From: Spirochaetota bacterium
Lineage (GTDB): Bacteria; Spirochaetota; Brachyspiria; Brachyspirales; JACRPF01
Assembly: GCA_016214035.1 (NCBI GenBank)
Contig: JACRPF010000015.1
Span: forward strand, 248,001-312,000
Reading direction: 5' to 3'
DNA: 64,000 bases
Shown: in pieces, positions 26,185 through 35,472 of the stretch
How the letters are laid out: each line of letters starts with the position of its first letter
Position numbering within the stretch: the stretch's first letter is position 1
The notes under the pieces: model-generated
The model's database searches: none
Told to the model about the DNA's origin: nothing
What the model saw: only the letters and a program-made list of their open reading frames with translations
Translations under genes and position numbers: made by a program

Positions 26185-27240
26185 ATGGCAAACACATTTT
26201 CACCCTTACCCATAGACGACTTCCTGTCACGCATGAAGACGGCGCCGGCATTTGACGTCCGTACACCCGCGGAATACATCCATGGCCATATTCCCGGTGC
26301 GCATAATCTTCCATTGTTCACCGATGAAGAGCGCGCTGTCATCGGCACGGCATACACGCGCGAGAGCAGGGCGGTTGCGATACGCAAAGGTCTGTCGTTC
26401 ATCGGACCACGCATGGGTACGATGATTGAATCGGTTGACCGTATTGCGAACGGTTCAAAGGAAGTGCTGGTGCATTGCTGGCGCGGCGGTATGCGCAGTG
26501 AAAGTGTCGCGTGGCTGCTGTCATTTGCCGGATATACGGTGTTTACACTCGAGGGCGGCTATAAGACATTCCGTCACTGGATGATTGATTCGTTTGCGAT
26601 GGTAAAGTATATCATCATCCTCGGCGGGCGTACCGGTGCCGGAAAGACAAAGATGCTGCACGCGCTCGCGGATGCGGGTGAACAGGTCCTTGACCTCGAA
26701 GCTGCCGCGTCGCATAAGGGTTCGGTGTTCGGCGCTATCGGTGAAGCGCCGCAGCCGACACAGGAACATTTTGAGAATCTCATCGGCATGGCGCTGCGCT
26801 CGTTCGATGCCGACAGGACGGTGTGGGTTGAGGACGAAAGCCCGAAGGTCGGAAAACTGCACATACCGAAACCGCTGTGGACGATGATGGAAACCGCGCC
26901 GGTCGTCTATCTCGATGTGTCGTCGGAGACACGCGTCCGTAACCTCATCCCCGAATATGTGCGTGTTGAGAAATCGGAGCTGACGGGCTATCTGGAAAAG
27001 ATACGCGAACGTCTCGGCGGCGAGAACACGGCGCATGCAATCGATGCCGTTACCCGGGGCGATTATGCGGATGCTGTGGGCGTGGTGCTCAGATATTATG
27101 ATAAAACGTATGACTATTGTCTTTCACGCCGGACTGAAGCATCGATAATAAAAGTTCCCGCAGGCGAAGGCGATACGGCTCTGCTCGTAAAGCGGTTGCT
27201 CGACGCCCGTGTAAAAGTACAACGCAAGGAGCGTGCATGA
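26185..27240 (+). CDS. selU: tRNA 2-selenouridine synthase
   Basis: A 351-residue two-domain enzyme (also called MnmH/YbbB). The N-terminal rhodanese domain has the catalytic Cys98 in [13 protein letters not shown]. The C-terminal domain carries a P-loop, [12 protein letters not shown], at about residues 146-157. It replaces sulfur by selenium at the wobble uridine of certain tRNAs through a geranylated intermediate, using selenophosphate. The selD gene overlaps its stop by 4 nt, so the enzyme and its selenium donor are made together. Length is normal for the family. Confidence 0.95.
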
Positions 27241-28271
27241 GTTCCATCAGATTGACACAATACAGTCACGGTGCCGGCTGCGGATGCAAGATAGCCCCGT
27301 CGGTATTGTCGGAGATTCTCGCGACGAACGAGGTGTTTCCCGATAATGCAAAGCTCATCGTCGGCAACAACTCCCGCGACGATGCCGCCGTGTACGACCT
27401 CGGCGACGGGCGCGGACTTATCAGCACCACGGACTTCTTCATGCCGATAGTGGACGACCCGTATGAGTTCGGCCGCATCGCGTCGGCCAATGCCATCAGT
27501 GATGTCTATGCGATGGGCGGCACACCGCTTCTTGCCATCGCCATACTCGGCTGGCCGCTTGAGAAACTCCCGCCTGAGGTTGCGCGCGAAGTGGTTTCCG
27601 GTTCACGCTCGATGTGCGCCGAGGCCGGCATTCCGCTTGCGGGAGGCCACAGTATCGACAGCCCGGAACCGATATTCGGTCTTGCGGTGAACGGCACCGT
27701 TGCGCTCAATCATCTGAAGCGAAACGATACGGCCGCGGCCGGCGATGTGCTCTTTCTTACCAAGCCGATAGGCATCGGAATACTCACCACCGCCGAGAAG
27801 AAAGGAATTCTCCGGCCTGAAGACAAGGGTCTTGCCGCGCGCTGGATGATGACGCTCAACCGCGCGGGTGAAAAAGTGAGCGCGCTTGCCGGCGTGCACG
27901 CGATGACCGATGTCACCGGTTTCGGACTGCTCGGACACCTGACCGAGATGTGTGAAGGCAGCAACTGTTCTGCGGTAATCGATGAAGGTGCGGTCATGCT
28001 GCTCGATAATGTCGATGCGTATGTCGCGGAGAAAGCGGTTCCCGGCGGAACGATGCGTAATTTCAAGAGTTACGGCCATCTCGTAGCGCCGATGAACGAC
28101 CGGACGCGCGCGCTTTTCTGTGACCCGCAGACAAGCGGCGGTCTTCTCATCGCCGCCGCACCGGAGGCTGCCGATGCGGTTGCCGGCATACTGCGGGAAT
28201 GCAATACTACGGTCATGCGCATAGGCACTATCGGGAGTCCGGCGGGTGATGTTCGCGTGCGTTTCATCTGA
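27237..28271 (+). CDS. selD: Selenide, water dikinase (selenophosphate synthase)
   Basis: A 344-residue enzyme that makes selenophosphate from selenide and ATP. The N-terminus [13 protein letters not shown] has cysteine, not selenocysteine, at the key position 17, followed by the essential Lys18. Metal-binding and glycine-rich motifs ([35 protein letters not shown]) are intact. AAGGAG lies at the end of selU and the reading frames overlap by ATGA. No selA, selB or tRNA-Sec is seen here, so in this window selenium use is supported only for tRNA modification. Confidence 0.97.
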
Positions 28272-28319: not shown

Positions 28320-30200
28320 ATGCCGTTCTATATAACATACTATTCCGTAGGACATTTCATTGCCGCGCTTGCCTCGGCGGTAATCGGTATCTATATTCTT
28401 ACCTTCAAAAAAAAGTCGGCTGCAACGTATCTGCTTGCCTTTTATACACTGTCGTTTTCACTGACGCGCTGTGCCGGTTTCCTGCTCGATACGATGCTTT
28501 CGGTGAACGTATCTTCGGTCATTTATTTTAACCGTTTTTTCATGCTGGGCGGCATCTTTCTCGCGGCGTTCGCATATCTGTATCACCGGGACGAGTTAAA
28601 TCGCGAGTCGAGGATAGTGCTTTCGCTTACGGCGGTATATCTTTTGATCTCGTATATCATCTATATCGCCCGTACCACAGCGGCGGATATCAATTTCAAT
28701 TTTATGTTCCACTCATACCGCCACGGCGGCAGCGATTATCGCGGCCAGTTCATGGCGCCGGCGCTGCTCGTGATGTATCTATGGATATGCATTGTTTTTG
28801 CGCGTAAAACAATACGCTTATCGACGCTGCGCACCGGTACGGCGAAAAAGATCGCTGCTATGTTTCCGCGTGCGGCAGGCGCGTTCATCGGCGCGTCGGT
28901 TAACGCGGTCGTACGGCTCGTACGTGCATCGGAGAAACCGGCGAAGGCATCCCGATCATTCATGCTGGTGTCGCTCATCCCGCTGGCGATGACATTCTCA
29001 TACTTTCTCGCTATTTTCGGCGGCATCCCGTATGTTTATTATGAGACCTTCATCTCGCTCGGTTCAATATTGTATCTTTTTTTCTATGTCATGGTGTACA
29101 TCAACAACTCACCCGAGCCGACGACGCTGCTTTTCAAAATCACTTTTATTCCGCTTGTTGTGGCACTCGGTGTCGTGGGGGTTTTGTCGATACCGGTGAA
29201 TGCATCAATTGAGAACGTGTATGAAAAAAAAGTGACCAAATCAACCGCGGCCGCGCTCGCGTATGTATCAGGACCGTCGGATCATGTTCCGGCGGATGTG
29301 CTCTATATCGTGCGCCGGCCTGCCAACGAGGGTGACGACTCCACAAATTATGCCGATGTATTTCTGCGCAGGGCTGAAACATCGGTAAGCGCGATGATAA
29401 ATAATGAGTCGCATCATAAGGTGAGTACACCGCGCCGCACCTTCCGCGCGCTTGATATCATGCAGCCGTCGACGTTCTATCTTGTGCGGACGTTCGTTTC
29501 CGGCGGGTTTGTCTTTGAGGTCGGGCTGTCGTACATTGAATACCGCGAATATCTGCATGACGGGCTGTTTCCGTTCATTCTGATAGCGGTTGTCCTTACC
29601 GCGATTATGCTGATACTGTTTCCCATATTTTTTTACCGGAGCCTGCTCACGCCGCTGAACGGCATCATGCATGCGATTGAAGCGTTTGACCGCGGTGAAA
29701 AGAACGTGCGTCTTGCGGTGGCTCATGAGGATGAATTCGGAAGGATAGCGGGCGCGTTCAACCGCATGACCATGAATCTGAAACGGACGATGAGCGAACT
29801 CGTCACGTCGCAGGAGGAAACAGCCGCCTACAGCGGACGGTTGTCGAAAATGGTGGATGAGCGCACCAAGGATCTCATTGCCACCAATAAGCGGCTTATC
29901 GATGAGATCGAGGCGCGTAAACACGCGGAGAATGTCCTTGAGAAGCTTGTGCAGACGGAATTTCTCGATATCGAACAACATGCTGAACTTCTTAAGCAGT
30001 TCGGCCTCACGGGCCGCGAAGTGCAGGTTCTGGTGGATCTCCTGAACGGACTCTCAAACAGGGATATCGCCGACCGGTACGGTATTGCGGAGCCCACCGC
30101 AAAGGTGCACACCATCAATATTTACCGCAAGTTCAAGGTAAATTCACGCGCCAGGCTCATCAAAGCCGTTCTCCAGCTTGTGCAACGGGATAATTCCTAA
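28320..30200 (+). CDS. Membrane-tethered LuxR-type transcription regulator
   Basis: A 626-residue protein. Residues 1-~270 hold about seven hydrophobic segments. A further membrane helix, an extracytoplasmic region (~300-420) and another helix (FPFILIAVVLTAIMLILFPIFFY) follow. Then come a HAMP domain (SLLTPLNGIMHAIEAFDRGEK...EDEFGRIAGAFNRMT), a coiled coil and a C-terminal LuxR helix-turn-helix (LTGREVQVLVDLLNGLSNRDIADRYGI...). There is no kinase or receiver domain, so the sensor appears to control DNA binding directly from the membrane. Similar 7TM-LuxR proteins occur in spirochaetes. Target genes are unknown. A strong terminator-like hairpin follows at 30307-30338. Confidence 0.85.
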   Translation: MPFYITYYSVGHFIAALASAVIGIYILTFKKKSAATYLLAFYTLSFSLTRCAGFLLDTMLSVNVSSVIYFNRFFMLGGIFLAAFAYLYHRDELNRESRIVLSLTAVYLLISYIIYIARTTAADINFNFMFHSYRHGGSDYRGQFMAPALLVMYLWICIVFARKTIRLSTLRTGTAKKIAAMFPRAAGAFIGASVNAVVRLVRASEKPAKASRSFMLVSLIPLAMTFSYFLAIFGGIPYVYYETFISLGSILYLFFYVMVYINNSPEPTTLLFKITFIPLVVALGVVGVLSIPVNASIENVYEKKVTKSTAAALAYVSGPSDHVPADVLYIVRRPANEGDDSTNYADVFLRRAETSVSAMINNESHHKVSTPRRTFRALDIMQPSTFYLVRTFVSGGFVFEVGLSYIEYREYLHDGLFPFILIAVVLTAIMLILFPIFFYRSLLTPLNGIMHAIEAFDRGEKNVRLAVAHEDEFGRIAGAFNRMTMNLKRTMSELVTSQEETAAYSGRLSKMVDERTKDLIATNKRLIDEIEARKHAENVLEKLVQTEFLDIEQHAELLKQFGLTGREVQVLVDLLNGLSNRDIADRYGIAEPTAKVHTINIYRKFKVNSRARLIKAVLQLVQRDNS

Positions 30201-32528: not shown

Positions 32529-34049
32529 TCAGGATGTTCTGCCGAGCGGCAGTCGTACCGTCACCGAAGTGCCTTTCTTCTCTTCGCTTGCGATCGAAAT
32601 GGTTCCCTGCATGACGTCGACGATGTTTTTTGCGATGTATAATCCGAGACCCATGCCGCCGAAGGCGCGGTCGAAACCGGCATCGAGCTGGATGAAAGGT
32701 TTGAACACGTCGCGGATGCGTTTGTGCGGGATGCCGATACCGGTGTCGCGTACGGCAAGTTCCGCTTCGAAGAGCCGTATGTCGCCGAGATGATGGTAGT
32801 TGAACAGGTCGGGTGAGAAATCGACGCGTCCTTCTTCACGCTTCGATACTTCGCGGAGCACTATCTCCACGCTGCCGCTCGGCGTGAATTTCAACGCATT
32901 AGAGATGACCGCTTCGGCGATGAGATGGAACCGCTCGCGAATACCGACGATCTGCGCCACCTCGGGTTCTATCTTCACCGAGACCTGAACCGAGGCCGGA
33001 TCGTACAGGAACGCGGTGGCCGCGATGATGGCGGCTATCTCGTCTGCCGGAGAGAACACGACGTTTTCAAGCGCTGTCTCGCCGTCACCGAGCGCCGCGT
33101 TGATGAGACCGCTGCTTACCTGCGAAATGCGGGCGATGTTGTCGCTGATGACCGTGAATGCCTTCTCGCGTGCTGCTTCGGGAATATCCTTTTTCTTGAG
33201 GAGGTTTACATAGCCCATGATGTTTGCCACGGGGTGTTTAAGCTCGTGTGTCACGCGGGCGCGGAATTCGCGGATGAGCCTCGCGTAATATTCCTGTTCG
33301 CGTTTGAGCCGCGCGGATTCCTGGATGAGCTTCTGGAATCTGCGCTCGATGACGTCGGTGACGATGGTCTCGGTCTGCGGATGGAGCGCCGCGGCAAGAC
33401 GCCGTAACGCCAGCTCCGTTGCGCCGTTTTCAATACGCCCGTCGTCGCACATGGCAAGCGCTTCGGTGAGATCGACGGTAAATGCCTCCTGCATCTCTTC
33501 CATCACCGACCCGTCGCCGCCCGGCTGTACCGGAGTCTGGCCGGTGACGTCCGCCGCGGTGATGTGAACCTTTTCGGTGAACATCCCCGGTGATGAAAAG
33601 AACGGCGCCCCGATGACCATGATCGAACCGGGCGCGGCGCTGTATCCGGTTTCCTCAAGGATTTCGCGGGAGGCGCACTGCCGTACCGCCGCCATTCCTT
33701 CGCCGTCTTCGGGTTCGATGATGCCCGCCGCTATCTCGATGAACGGGACGGCTGCCGAGGCCCGTTTTTCAATCACCGTTTCACGGTAGCGCACCACAGG
33801 TCTGAACGAACGGCGGAGCACCACATGCACCGCATGTCCGGCCCTGATGAACGGCAGGATGACCACCGCATCGGGATGGTTGCGCGTGATGATGTCGCAG
33901 TTATACGGATCCGATACACTGCCGTCGGTGTAGCTGTTGCGTACACGCACGCGCCGCACCGTGACGAAACCGGTGGCCAGCTCCACGGGCGGCACCAGCG
34001 GCGAGAATTGCGCCTCGGTGACGCTTTTGCTTTTCTTATTTACCGCCAT
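32529..34049 (-). CDS. NUDIX-histidine kinase fusion protein
   Basis: A 506-residue soluble protein. Residues ~40-215 are an ADP-ribose-pyrophosphatase-like NUDIX domain with the core REILEETGY; the stretch from the motif's first glycine is about five residues longer than usual. A coiled coil (~220-255) leads to a histidine kinase: His268 in RVTHELKHPVANI, N-box EAVISNALKFTP, G1 VRDTGIGIP, F-box FKPFIQLD and G2 GGMGLGLYIAKNI. No transmembrane segment or response regulator is present. A nucleotide-sugar or ADP-ribose signal sensed by the NUDIX part is a reasonable guess. Its start overlaps the preceding lipoprotein gene by 10 nt. Confidence 0.9.
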   Translation of the reverse strand: MAVNKKSKSVTEAQFSPLVPPVELATGFVTVRRVRVRNSYTDGSVSDPYNCDIITRNHPDAVVILPFIRAGHAVHVVLRRSFRPVVRYRETVIEKRASAAVPFIEIAAGIIEPEDGEGMAAVRQCASREILEETGYSAAPGSIMVIGAPFFSSPGMFTEKVHITAADVTGQTPVQPGGDGSVMEEMQEAFTVDLTEALAMCDDGRIENGATELALRRLAAALHPQTETIVTDVIERRFQKLIQESARLKREQEYYARLIREFRARVTHELKHPVANIMGYVNLLKKKDIPEAAREKAFTVISDNIARISQVSSGLINAALGDGETALENVVFSPADEIAAIIAATAFLYDPASVQVSVKIEPEVAQIVGIRERFHLIAEAVISNALKFTPSGSVEIVLREVSKREEGRVDFSPDLFNYHHLGDIRLFEAELAVRDTGIGIPHKRIRDVFKPFIQLDAGFDRAFGGMGLGLYIAKNIVDVMQGTISIASEEKKGTSVTVRLPLGRTS

Positions 34050-34465
34050 CGTAATGCCTCGATCTTCCCTTGCTCTACGATGTGTTTCAGCCCGGGGAAA
34101 ACAAGCTCAATCACGATATCGCAGCGGCCGTTGTCGCTGTGCGCGGCGCGGATGACGGCATATTTTTTTTCGATGAATTCTTTTACGGCGGTGTTGAGCG
34201 CGTCATTGGTACGCGGCGTGTACCGCATCAATTCGGTTTCCGTCTGCGAACGGGCGATGAGTACGGCCGCATTGGATGCGCTGGTATTCCGTGCCGCAGC
34301 TGAGGAGTCGAACGGGTTCGGATAGCCGATGCCCGATGCGCGGAAGGTATTGTCGTCAACAAAGCCGTCGGTAATCGCGGCCGCTGCCGGAGCTTCGGTG
34401 CGCAGTGCCGCGGGCTGCGTACAGCCGATGAGGAAAAGCAGAGCAAAAGCAGGCATGAGACGCAT
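34040..34465 (-). CDS. LPP20-like lipoprotein
   Basis: A 141-residue lipoprotein with signal and lipobox (MRLMPAFALLFLIGC, lipidated Cys15). The mature part, DDNTFRASGIGYPNPF followed by an alanine-rich helix (RNTSASNAAVLIARSQ), resembles the LPP20/FlgT-N-like family in which a variable strand precedes an 'A..AA...A' helix. Function of these lipoproteins is generally unknown. The start at 34465 was chosen for the lipoprotein signal. It sits between the Rossmann-type protein and the NUDIX-kinase, with tight spacing on both sides. Confidence 0.65.
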   Translation of the reverse strand: MRLMPAFALLFLIGCTQPAALRTEAPAAAAITDGFVDDNTFRASGIGYPNPFDSSAAARNTSASNAAVLIARSQTETELMRYTPRTNDALNTAVKEFIEKKYAVIRAAHSDNGRCDIVIELVFPGLKHIVEQGKIEALRWR

Positions 34466-34473
34466 ATCCGGTC

Positions 34474-35382
34474 CTACAACGTACAGTCGCCCGATGACGA
34501 AATGCCTTTGATGCATTGAAAGACGGGATAGAGGTCTTCAAGCGGCGCGTGCACGAACGATGTCTTTCTGGCGATGTAACTGAAGAACGCGCTCCATACG
34601 CGGACACCGCGTTCTTCATCACTTTCAGTGTAGGTGTAATGCTCTTTGAACCCGTTGCGGTGGGTGACGATGAGCTCGCGCTCACTCCATACCGCATCGG
34701 CGTCCGACGCCATGATGCTGATCGATGCGATATCGCCTTCCATGAGCGTTATCGACGGCCCGGAGACGGGTGTGAATACCGATGCAGCGGGGTTTTTTGT
34801 CTCTGCGGCTGATGCGATCCTGAACTCGAGCTTGTTGTCCACGTTCGCGAGCAGAAGCGCCGCGGGCAGGAGTTTTTCCAGAAGTATCGGTGTCTCCCGC
34901 AGCGCTTTCAAAGGTGTGCGCACAATAACGCGGCTCACATCGCCGAAACGTTTTGCGGTGATCATTTTTTTGATGATGCCGATTTTGGAGTCGGCGAGAA
35001 GCGGCGTGTATGCGGCGCAGAGCAGACGCCGTTTTATGTATTCATGCTCCCAGTACGCGGCGTACATCTGCGTATACTGCCCGGGGGTGAGCGCGGTCAC
35101 GTCGGATAAAAAGATATGCATGCCTTTTATCACAGCTGCATCGACTACCGCCGGAGCGATGACGCTGCCGAAGACGATAGCGTCGGCGACGGTGTCCGAC
35201 AGCATTGCAGTGCCGTCGGTGCGTGCGAGCGATGCGTCCGCGGCCGAAGGATTTCCGCTGTCGGTGAAATTGAGTCCCACAAGATCGATGACATTATTGT
35301 CCGCAAGCAGCGACAGTACACCGATTACCCGGTGATAATAATCTTTTGAATCGCCTGAAAAGACGACGCGTATCGGTTTCAT
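34474..35382 (-). CDS. Divergent Gfo/Idh/MocA-like Rossmann protein
   Basis: A 302-residue protein. It opens with KPIRVVFSGDSKDYYHRVIGVLSLLADN, a dinucleotide-binding-like first strand in which the usual GxGxxG is degraded to SGDSKDYYHR. Later sequence (ADAIVFGSVIAPAVVDAAVIKGMHIFLSD) matches the strand-helix pattern of the Gfo/Idh family, and the end (YIARKTSFVHAPLEDLYPVFQCIKGI) resembles that family's terminal helix. Cofactor binding is doubtful. GGAGAG precedes the start at 35382. It is the first gene of the operon with the lipoprotein and NUDIX-kinase. Confidence in the family is moderate. Confidence 0.5.
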   Translation of the reverse strand: MKPIRVVFSGDSKDYYHRVIGVLSLLADNNVIDLVGLNFTDSGNPSAADASLARTDGTAMLSDTVADAIVFGSVIAPAVVDAAVIKGMHIFLSDVTALTPGQYTQMYAAYWEHEYIKRRLLCAAYTPLLADSKIGIIKKMITAKRFGDVSRVIVRTPLKALRETPILLEKLLPAALLLANVDNKLEFRIASAAETKNPAASVFTPVSGPSITLMEGDIASISIMASDADAVWSERELIVTHRNGFKEHYTYTESDEERGVRVWSAFFSYIARKTSFVHAPLEDLYPVFQCIKGISSSGDCTL

Positions 35383-35472
35383 AGCTCTCTCCGCAACATG
35401 CGTGAACATCCGTCACGAATGTGCATCAACAGGAGGCTCACCGTTCTGACGGCTGATATTATGATAACCTGA

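Follow-up and report, generated by a model that had tools for sequence, protein, structure and literature searches.

The window analyzed here is a 64,000-nucleotide stretch of contig JACRPF010000015.1 (positions 248,001 to 312,000 of the forward strand) from a Spirochaetota bacterium of the order Brachyspirales. At 32529..34049 on its minus strand lies a coding sequence that begins with ATG and encodes 506 amino acids, in which an ADPRase-family Nudix domain is fused to a complete histidine kinase. Residues 20 to 222 (33384..33992, minus) form a Nudix domain of the ADPRase/NudK (TIGR00052) type with an N-terminal beta sheet, as evidenced by TIGR00052, AF2, and Foldseek. A helical linker, or coiled coil, follows (residues 223 to 255; 33285..33383, minus), with only 3% invariant columns, and leads into a DHp (HisKA) domain (residues 256 to 325; 33075..33284, minus) recognized by Pfam HisKA and by AF2 helices at residues 224 to 284 and 291 to 320. 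The C-terminal portion is a CA (HATPase_c) domain (residues 326 to 503; 32541..33074, minus) identified by Pfam and by alignment.

The original prediction described this protein well: the coordinates, the strand, and the single intact frame were correct, as were the ADPRase-like Nudix domain, the coiled-coil joint, and the complete kinase core. It also called for no transmembrane segment and no receiver domain, and indeed the highest mean hydropathy over 19 residues is 1.68, which is not suggestive of a membrane span, and Pfam detects no receiver. The protein is apparently a cytosolic histidine kinase. An assembly join or frameshift, which the prediction had itself raised as a danger, is excluded as the source of the fusion by collinear full-length orthologues in all 31 genomes of the order. 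In the window protein, Pfam matches HATPase_c at residues 371 to 503 (E 2e-21), HisKA at 260 to 311 (E 1e-5, slightly below the cut-off), and NUDIX at 105 to 195 (E 9e-4; 19.6 bits versus a cut-off of 21.1). Because the latter two matches fall below the Pfam cut-offs, routine annotation may overlook the Nudix part. Across 19 family members at E <= 0.01, HisKA is matched in every one and PF00293 in 18, the window protein included.

Orthologues of this Nudix kinase, with 38 to 56% identity, occur in a single copy in each of the 31 Brachyspirales genomes. Brachyspira murdochii (G018) is among the carriers, and the larger of the families represented is the Brachyspiraceae. Searches with the Nudix profile A2 (E 1e-10) found no Nudix kinase in 362 other Spirochaetota genomes, and the same profile found no such fusion in 398 genomes of the phylum around a Clostridia metagenome-assembled genome (MAG). 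In those 398 genomes, profile A2 did find 33 ADPRases that stand alone, their open frames 178 to 242 amino acids long, and so it is able to detect relatives. Among plasmids, no record covered 80% of the query. Querying named genome contigs with the window protein alone returned one unrelated kinase and missed the Brachyspira orthologues too; its silence therefore shows little. A widespread fusion is not borne out by the plasmids or by either genome set, and restriction to the order holds within the 362 Spirochaetota genomes and the 398 genomes around the Clostridia MAG, a sample outside which other phyla largely lie. Each Brachyspirales genome contains exactly one TIGR00052 match (E <= 1e-8), which is the fusion itself.

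The expectation that no characterized protein shares this architecture agrees with the literature searched, which describes none; nor did a host of similarly built proteins with known functions emerge. For instance, a review of the Nudix clan contains neither the word "kinase" nor the word "histidine" (PMC5389931). The Nudix kinase is a real, conserved, and uncharacterized two-component sensor architecture.

Several lines of evidence identify the Nudix domain. The NCBIfam model TIGR00052 (YffH/AdpP) matches residues 26 to 216 of the window protein with an E value of 7e-14. The score is 51.9 bits against a curated cut-off of 79.55, and orthologues reach 69.4, so the domain is a divergent relative of this family and not filed as a member. 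Solved NudK/ADPRase chains are matched by phmmer (E 2e-6). The original prediction had also proposed a structure prediction of the N-terminal part; an AF2 model of residues 1 to 235 has a pLDDT of 86.8 and adopts a Nudix fold, for which the best Foldseek matches in the PDB are Escherichia coli NudK, a GDP-mannose hydrolase (3o61/3o69; TM 0.83 to 0.84 by target, and 0.82 to 0.86 for NudK overall), with Klebsiella and E. coli ADP-ribose diphosphatases (9drf/1g0s) also among the top matches. Together, the phmmer, TIGR00052, and Foldseek results exclude a chance Nudix match.

The Nudix box spans G109 to Y136 (33642..33725, minus). Relative to the signature G-x5-E-x7-REUxEExGU, both G109 and REILEETGY are present, with 5 additional residues between the glycine and RExxEE in the window protein and 8 in Brachyspira. 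The stretch of about 5 residues had been noticed in the original prediction, and the count agrees: G109 to R128 is 19 steps, compared with 14 in the consensus. This insertion of 5 to 8 residues falls within the loop that precedes the catalytic helix, and no catalytic residue is lost to it. G109, E112, R128, E129, E132, E133, and G135 of the box are invariant in the 19 family members. Moreover, in an alignment of fusions with stand-alone ADPRases (A3), the invariant positions are V62, R83, E105, A108, G109, R128, E129, E132, E133, G135, G155, and E185.

Structural work on Bd-NDPSase offers a guide to these residues. In that enzyme, the box glutamates and Glu140 of loop L9 are positioned to coordinate Mg, an E140Q variant has no activity, and the beta-phosphate is held by Arg64 (PMC4629899). 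By alignment, R83 of the Nudix kinase is the counterpart of Arg64, and Glu185 (33495..33497, minus), which is invariant and sits in the catalytic loop (L9), is the likely counterpart of Glu140. A D-x-K motif has been proposed for NDP-sugar hydrolases (PMC4629899); it is absent from the Nudix kinase, which has N208-G-A210, and likewise from Klebsiella ADPRase, which has N-A-A. One position in the pocket differs. An arginine of strand beta3 in ADPRase-type enzymes stacks on the base (PMC4629899), and counting along the phmmer alignment places it at residue 51 of E. coli ADPRase. In the phmmer alignment to Klebsiella ADPRase, Cys51 of strand beta3 (33897..33899, minus) takes this place, and it is invariant in alignments A1 and A2. 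The aromatic residue of loop L1 is retained as F28. The exchange of Arg51 for Cys51 suggests altered ligand recognition, and the domain, judged by its conserved residues, looks like one whose chemistry is intact and whose base recognition has changed. Cys51 and Cys125 (33675..33677) of the Nudix domain are both invariant in all 19 aligned members, and redox sensing through this pair is a possible alternative input.

On the kinase side, 19 aligned family members share the phospho-acceptor His268 (33246..33248, minus), N384 of the N box, D435, G437, and G439 of the G1 box, F452 of the F box, and G465, G467, and G469 of the G2 box without exception. His268 lies in the motif H-E-L-K-H272-P, and His272, at the H+4 position, is also invariant in the family (HELKH or HELRH). 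HisKA kinases usually carry threonine or asparagine at H+4, which is a feature of those with phosphatase activity and not of the whole family. The histidine at this position may thus indicate weak or unusual phosphatase activity, and it does not lower the expectation of kinase activity. Between the N and G1 boxes, a lineage-specific motif, D-x-S-P-D-L-F-N-Y-H (residues 410 to 419; 32793..32822, minus), is invariant except at x. In the full-length AF2 model, which is of medium confidence (pLDDT 69, pTM 0.39), residues 224 to 284 form one helix that connects the Nudix domain with the DHp bundle, and Foldseek matches this model to GacS, DivL, and HK853.

The neighborhood of the kinase gene differs between families. 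In the window, a small protein with a lipobox (LIGC) is encoded at 34040..34516 (minus) and overlaps the start of the kinase gene by 10 bases, an arrangement repeated with an overlap of 4 bases in a sister genome (G001). Upstream, a 311-amino-acid protein (34474..35409, minus) opens a row of three genes that is conserved in that genome as well. For the two proteins (34040 to 35409), no family was matched in the searches made, Pfam included, and their conservation beside the kinase is limited to the window's family. Immediately upstream of the kinase gene and in the same orientation, 28 of 29 Brachyspiraceae carry a gene for an RsbW-like HATPase_c_2 protein of the RsbW/SpoIIAB type, about 160 amino acids long, at a median gap of 32 bases (e.g., L033:6853-7332). 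Neither G002 nor the window's family has this neighbor, which makes its place in an ancestral unit uncertain. The window's genome encodes only a distant RsbW-like homologue, a domain that follows a membrane and PAS-like region within one long protein (L042:1-1950). No locus read contains a cognate response regulator adjoining the Nudix kinase, and no ADP-ribose or NAD gene neighborhood was seen around these loci; only two Brachyspira loci, L033 and L041, have apparent nucleoside-catabolism genes downstream.

Taken as a whole, the protein is best explained, with better than even confidence, as a ligand-gated, cytosolic, dimeric sensor kinase that probably still hydrolyzes its ligand. We infer the gating through the dimer, the ligand class, the catalysis, and the output partner as follows. 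The input module would be an ADPRase/NudK-family Nudix dimer within a homodimeric sensor kinase, and binding, and probably hydrolysis, of a nucleoside diphosphate derivative (ADP-ribose or an NDP-sugar, for example) would reshape the geometry of that dimer. The change would pass along the helical linker to the DHp bundle and set the autophosphorylation of His268. Histidine kinases signal as dimers. Since Nudix enzymes of this type are dimeric too, ligand occupancy could act on the DHp helices directly, and the domain-swapped, homodimeric form of the nearest solved Nudix relatives is in keeping with a helical connection to a dimeric kinase. In dimeric enzymes of the family, the N-terminal domains are swapped and the active sites are shared between subunits (PMC4629899).

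The main competitor is a Nudix domain that has lost hydrolysis and serves purely as a ligand-binding sensor, as in TRPM2 (NUDT9H) and NrtR, and we regard it as possible, at well below even likelihood. Noncatalytic Nudix domains usually belong to multidomain proteins (PMC5389931), and both the loop insertion in the box and the replacement of Arg51 would fit such a loss. The original prediction had leaned this way, taking the stretched motif as a possible sign of binding without cutting. That part of it fares poorly, as the metal ligands E129, E132, and E133, together with R128, R83, and E185, are invariant across the order and common to the stand-alone enzymes. The Nudix box of TRPM2 itself does not support hydrolysis (PMC4974056), whereas every catalytic glutamate is kept in the Nudix kinase.

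A bolder version of the hydrolyzing sensor, which we regard as tentative, is a self-terminating kinase whose Nudix head would both sense and destroy a nucleoside diphosphate-derivative signal. This signal could resemble ADP-ribose or be a new ligand recognized through Cys51, and the kinase output would then report its flux, or a timed pulse of it, and feed a partner switch. If true, this would define a new class of two-component sensor, fixed in one bacterial order.

The reverse logic, in which control passes from the kinase part to the Nudix enzyme and phosphorylation toggles nucleotide hydrolysis in what is in effect a regulated metabolic enzyme, seems improbable. As the sole TIGR00052 enzyme of these genomes, the protein may have to fill a metabolic role, and the missing adjoining response regulator would suit this arrangement. 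Nevertheless, the His, N, G1, F, and G2 boxes are retained in full, an RsbW-like regulator gene adjoins the kinase in Brachyspiraceae, and the usual direction of control in kinases runs from the N-terminal accessory domain to the kinase.

For the favored ligand-gated sensor kinase, the phosphate of His268 would be passed to a response regulator encoded elsewhere. In B. murdochii, there are 13 receiver-domain matches and, by our count, four histidine kinases outside chemotaxis, which makes the Nudix kinase a large share of this organism's signaling. Its NtrB-like and PhoR-like kinases adjoin their regulators, while the Nudix kinase has none and the HAMP kinase (L108) has only a 118-amino-acid protein alongside. 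The unlinked regulators include REC-SpoIIE, REC-LpxC, REC-GGDEF, and HTH-REC proteins as well as single receivers. At L095:3184-3804, an HTH_17 domain precedes the receiver, the reverse of the usual order in response regulators, and similar proteins are found in L102 and L103. In Brachyspiraceae, the output would most likely meet the upstream RsbW-like partner-switch protein, for instance, via an unlinked REC-SpoIIE phosphatase. Our hypothesis that REC-SpoIIE would be a natural bridge from the Nudix kinase to the RsbW-like protein draws on an analogy with RsfS-RsfR of Mycobacterium smegmatis, in which a kinase signals to an RsbW network by way of a REC-phosphatase (PMC10950880). G018, G010, and G006 contain REC-SpoIIE, and it was not identified among the regulators read in the window's genome.

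Least probable among the alternatives is a variant of the favored reading with REC-LpxC as the output, by which the kinase would tune lipid A synthesis to nucleotide-sugar supply: this unlinked receiver-bearing protein occurs in the same 31 of 31 genomes, but its co-distribution as a unique partner is weakened by three Spirochaetota genomes (G040, G052, and G062) that have REC-LpxC but yielded no Nudix kinase, and a second B. murdochii kinase also lacks a classical paired regulator.

Among known systems, the nearest to the Nudix part are E. coli NudF/AdpP and NudK, which have the same fold, N-terminal sheet, box glutamates, R83, and catalytic-loop glutamate; ADPRase also resembles it in a last helix without D-x-K. 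The present domain differs from NudF/AdpP and NudK in its fusion to a kinase, the box insertion of 5 to 8 residues, Cys51 in place of arginine, and a score below the family cut-off. Similarly, the soluble cores of the HK853, GacS, and PhoR class share its DHp and CA domains and the full set of boxes, whereas the Nudix kinase has a Nudix input instead of PAS, GAF, or HAMP, a histidine at H+4, and the DxSPDLFNYH motif. TRPM2 likewise uses a Nudix domain as the ligand-sensing part of a larger signaling protein; it is, however, a eukaryotic channel with a box that does not support hydrolysis (PMC4974056), in contrast to the conserved catalytic residues here. NrtR is a bacterial regulator whose Nudix domain senses ADP-ribose, but it joins that domain to a C-terminal winged helix, with no His-Asp relay, where the Nudix kinase has kinase domains. 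Finally, the proposed wiring resembles RsfS-RsfR and RsbK-RsbY of SigF/SigB partner switching, which run from kinase to REC-phosphatase to RsbW network. The sensor of RsfS is CHASE3 and not Nudix, and the RsbW link proposed here comes from gene neighborhood only.

The range of sensor domains that feed histidine kinases is limited. As an order-wide kinase input, a catalytic-looking Nudix dimer would link nucleotide/NAD(+) turnover directly to His-Asp signaling. Brachyspira includes swine and human gut pathogens, and what they might sense by way of ADP-ribose-type molecules becomes testable with one soluble protein.

Other observations extend beyond the Nudix kinase. LpxC is the committed enzyme of lipid A synthesis, and its fusion to a receiver (PF00072 plus PF03331, E 4e-69; L085:2628-3947, plus strand) recurs at L110:3989-5311, L112:166-1467, L113:1155-2450, and L115:1297-2601; one of the 31 Brachyspirales copies is truncated at a contig end. 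No paper on REC-LpxC was found in the literature searched, and the fusion may merit separate study. In the window itself, the gene at 28320-30200 encodes a HAMP domain with a LuxR-type HTH (GerE) behind it, that is, a HAMP-coupled one-component regulator. At 26185-28271, a rhodanese-like tRNA 2-selenouridine synthase, as read from its sequence, adjoins a selenophosphate synthase gene.
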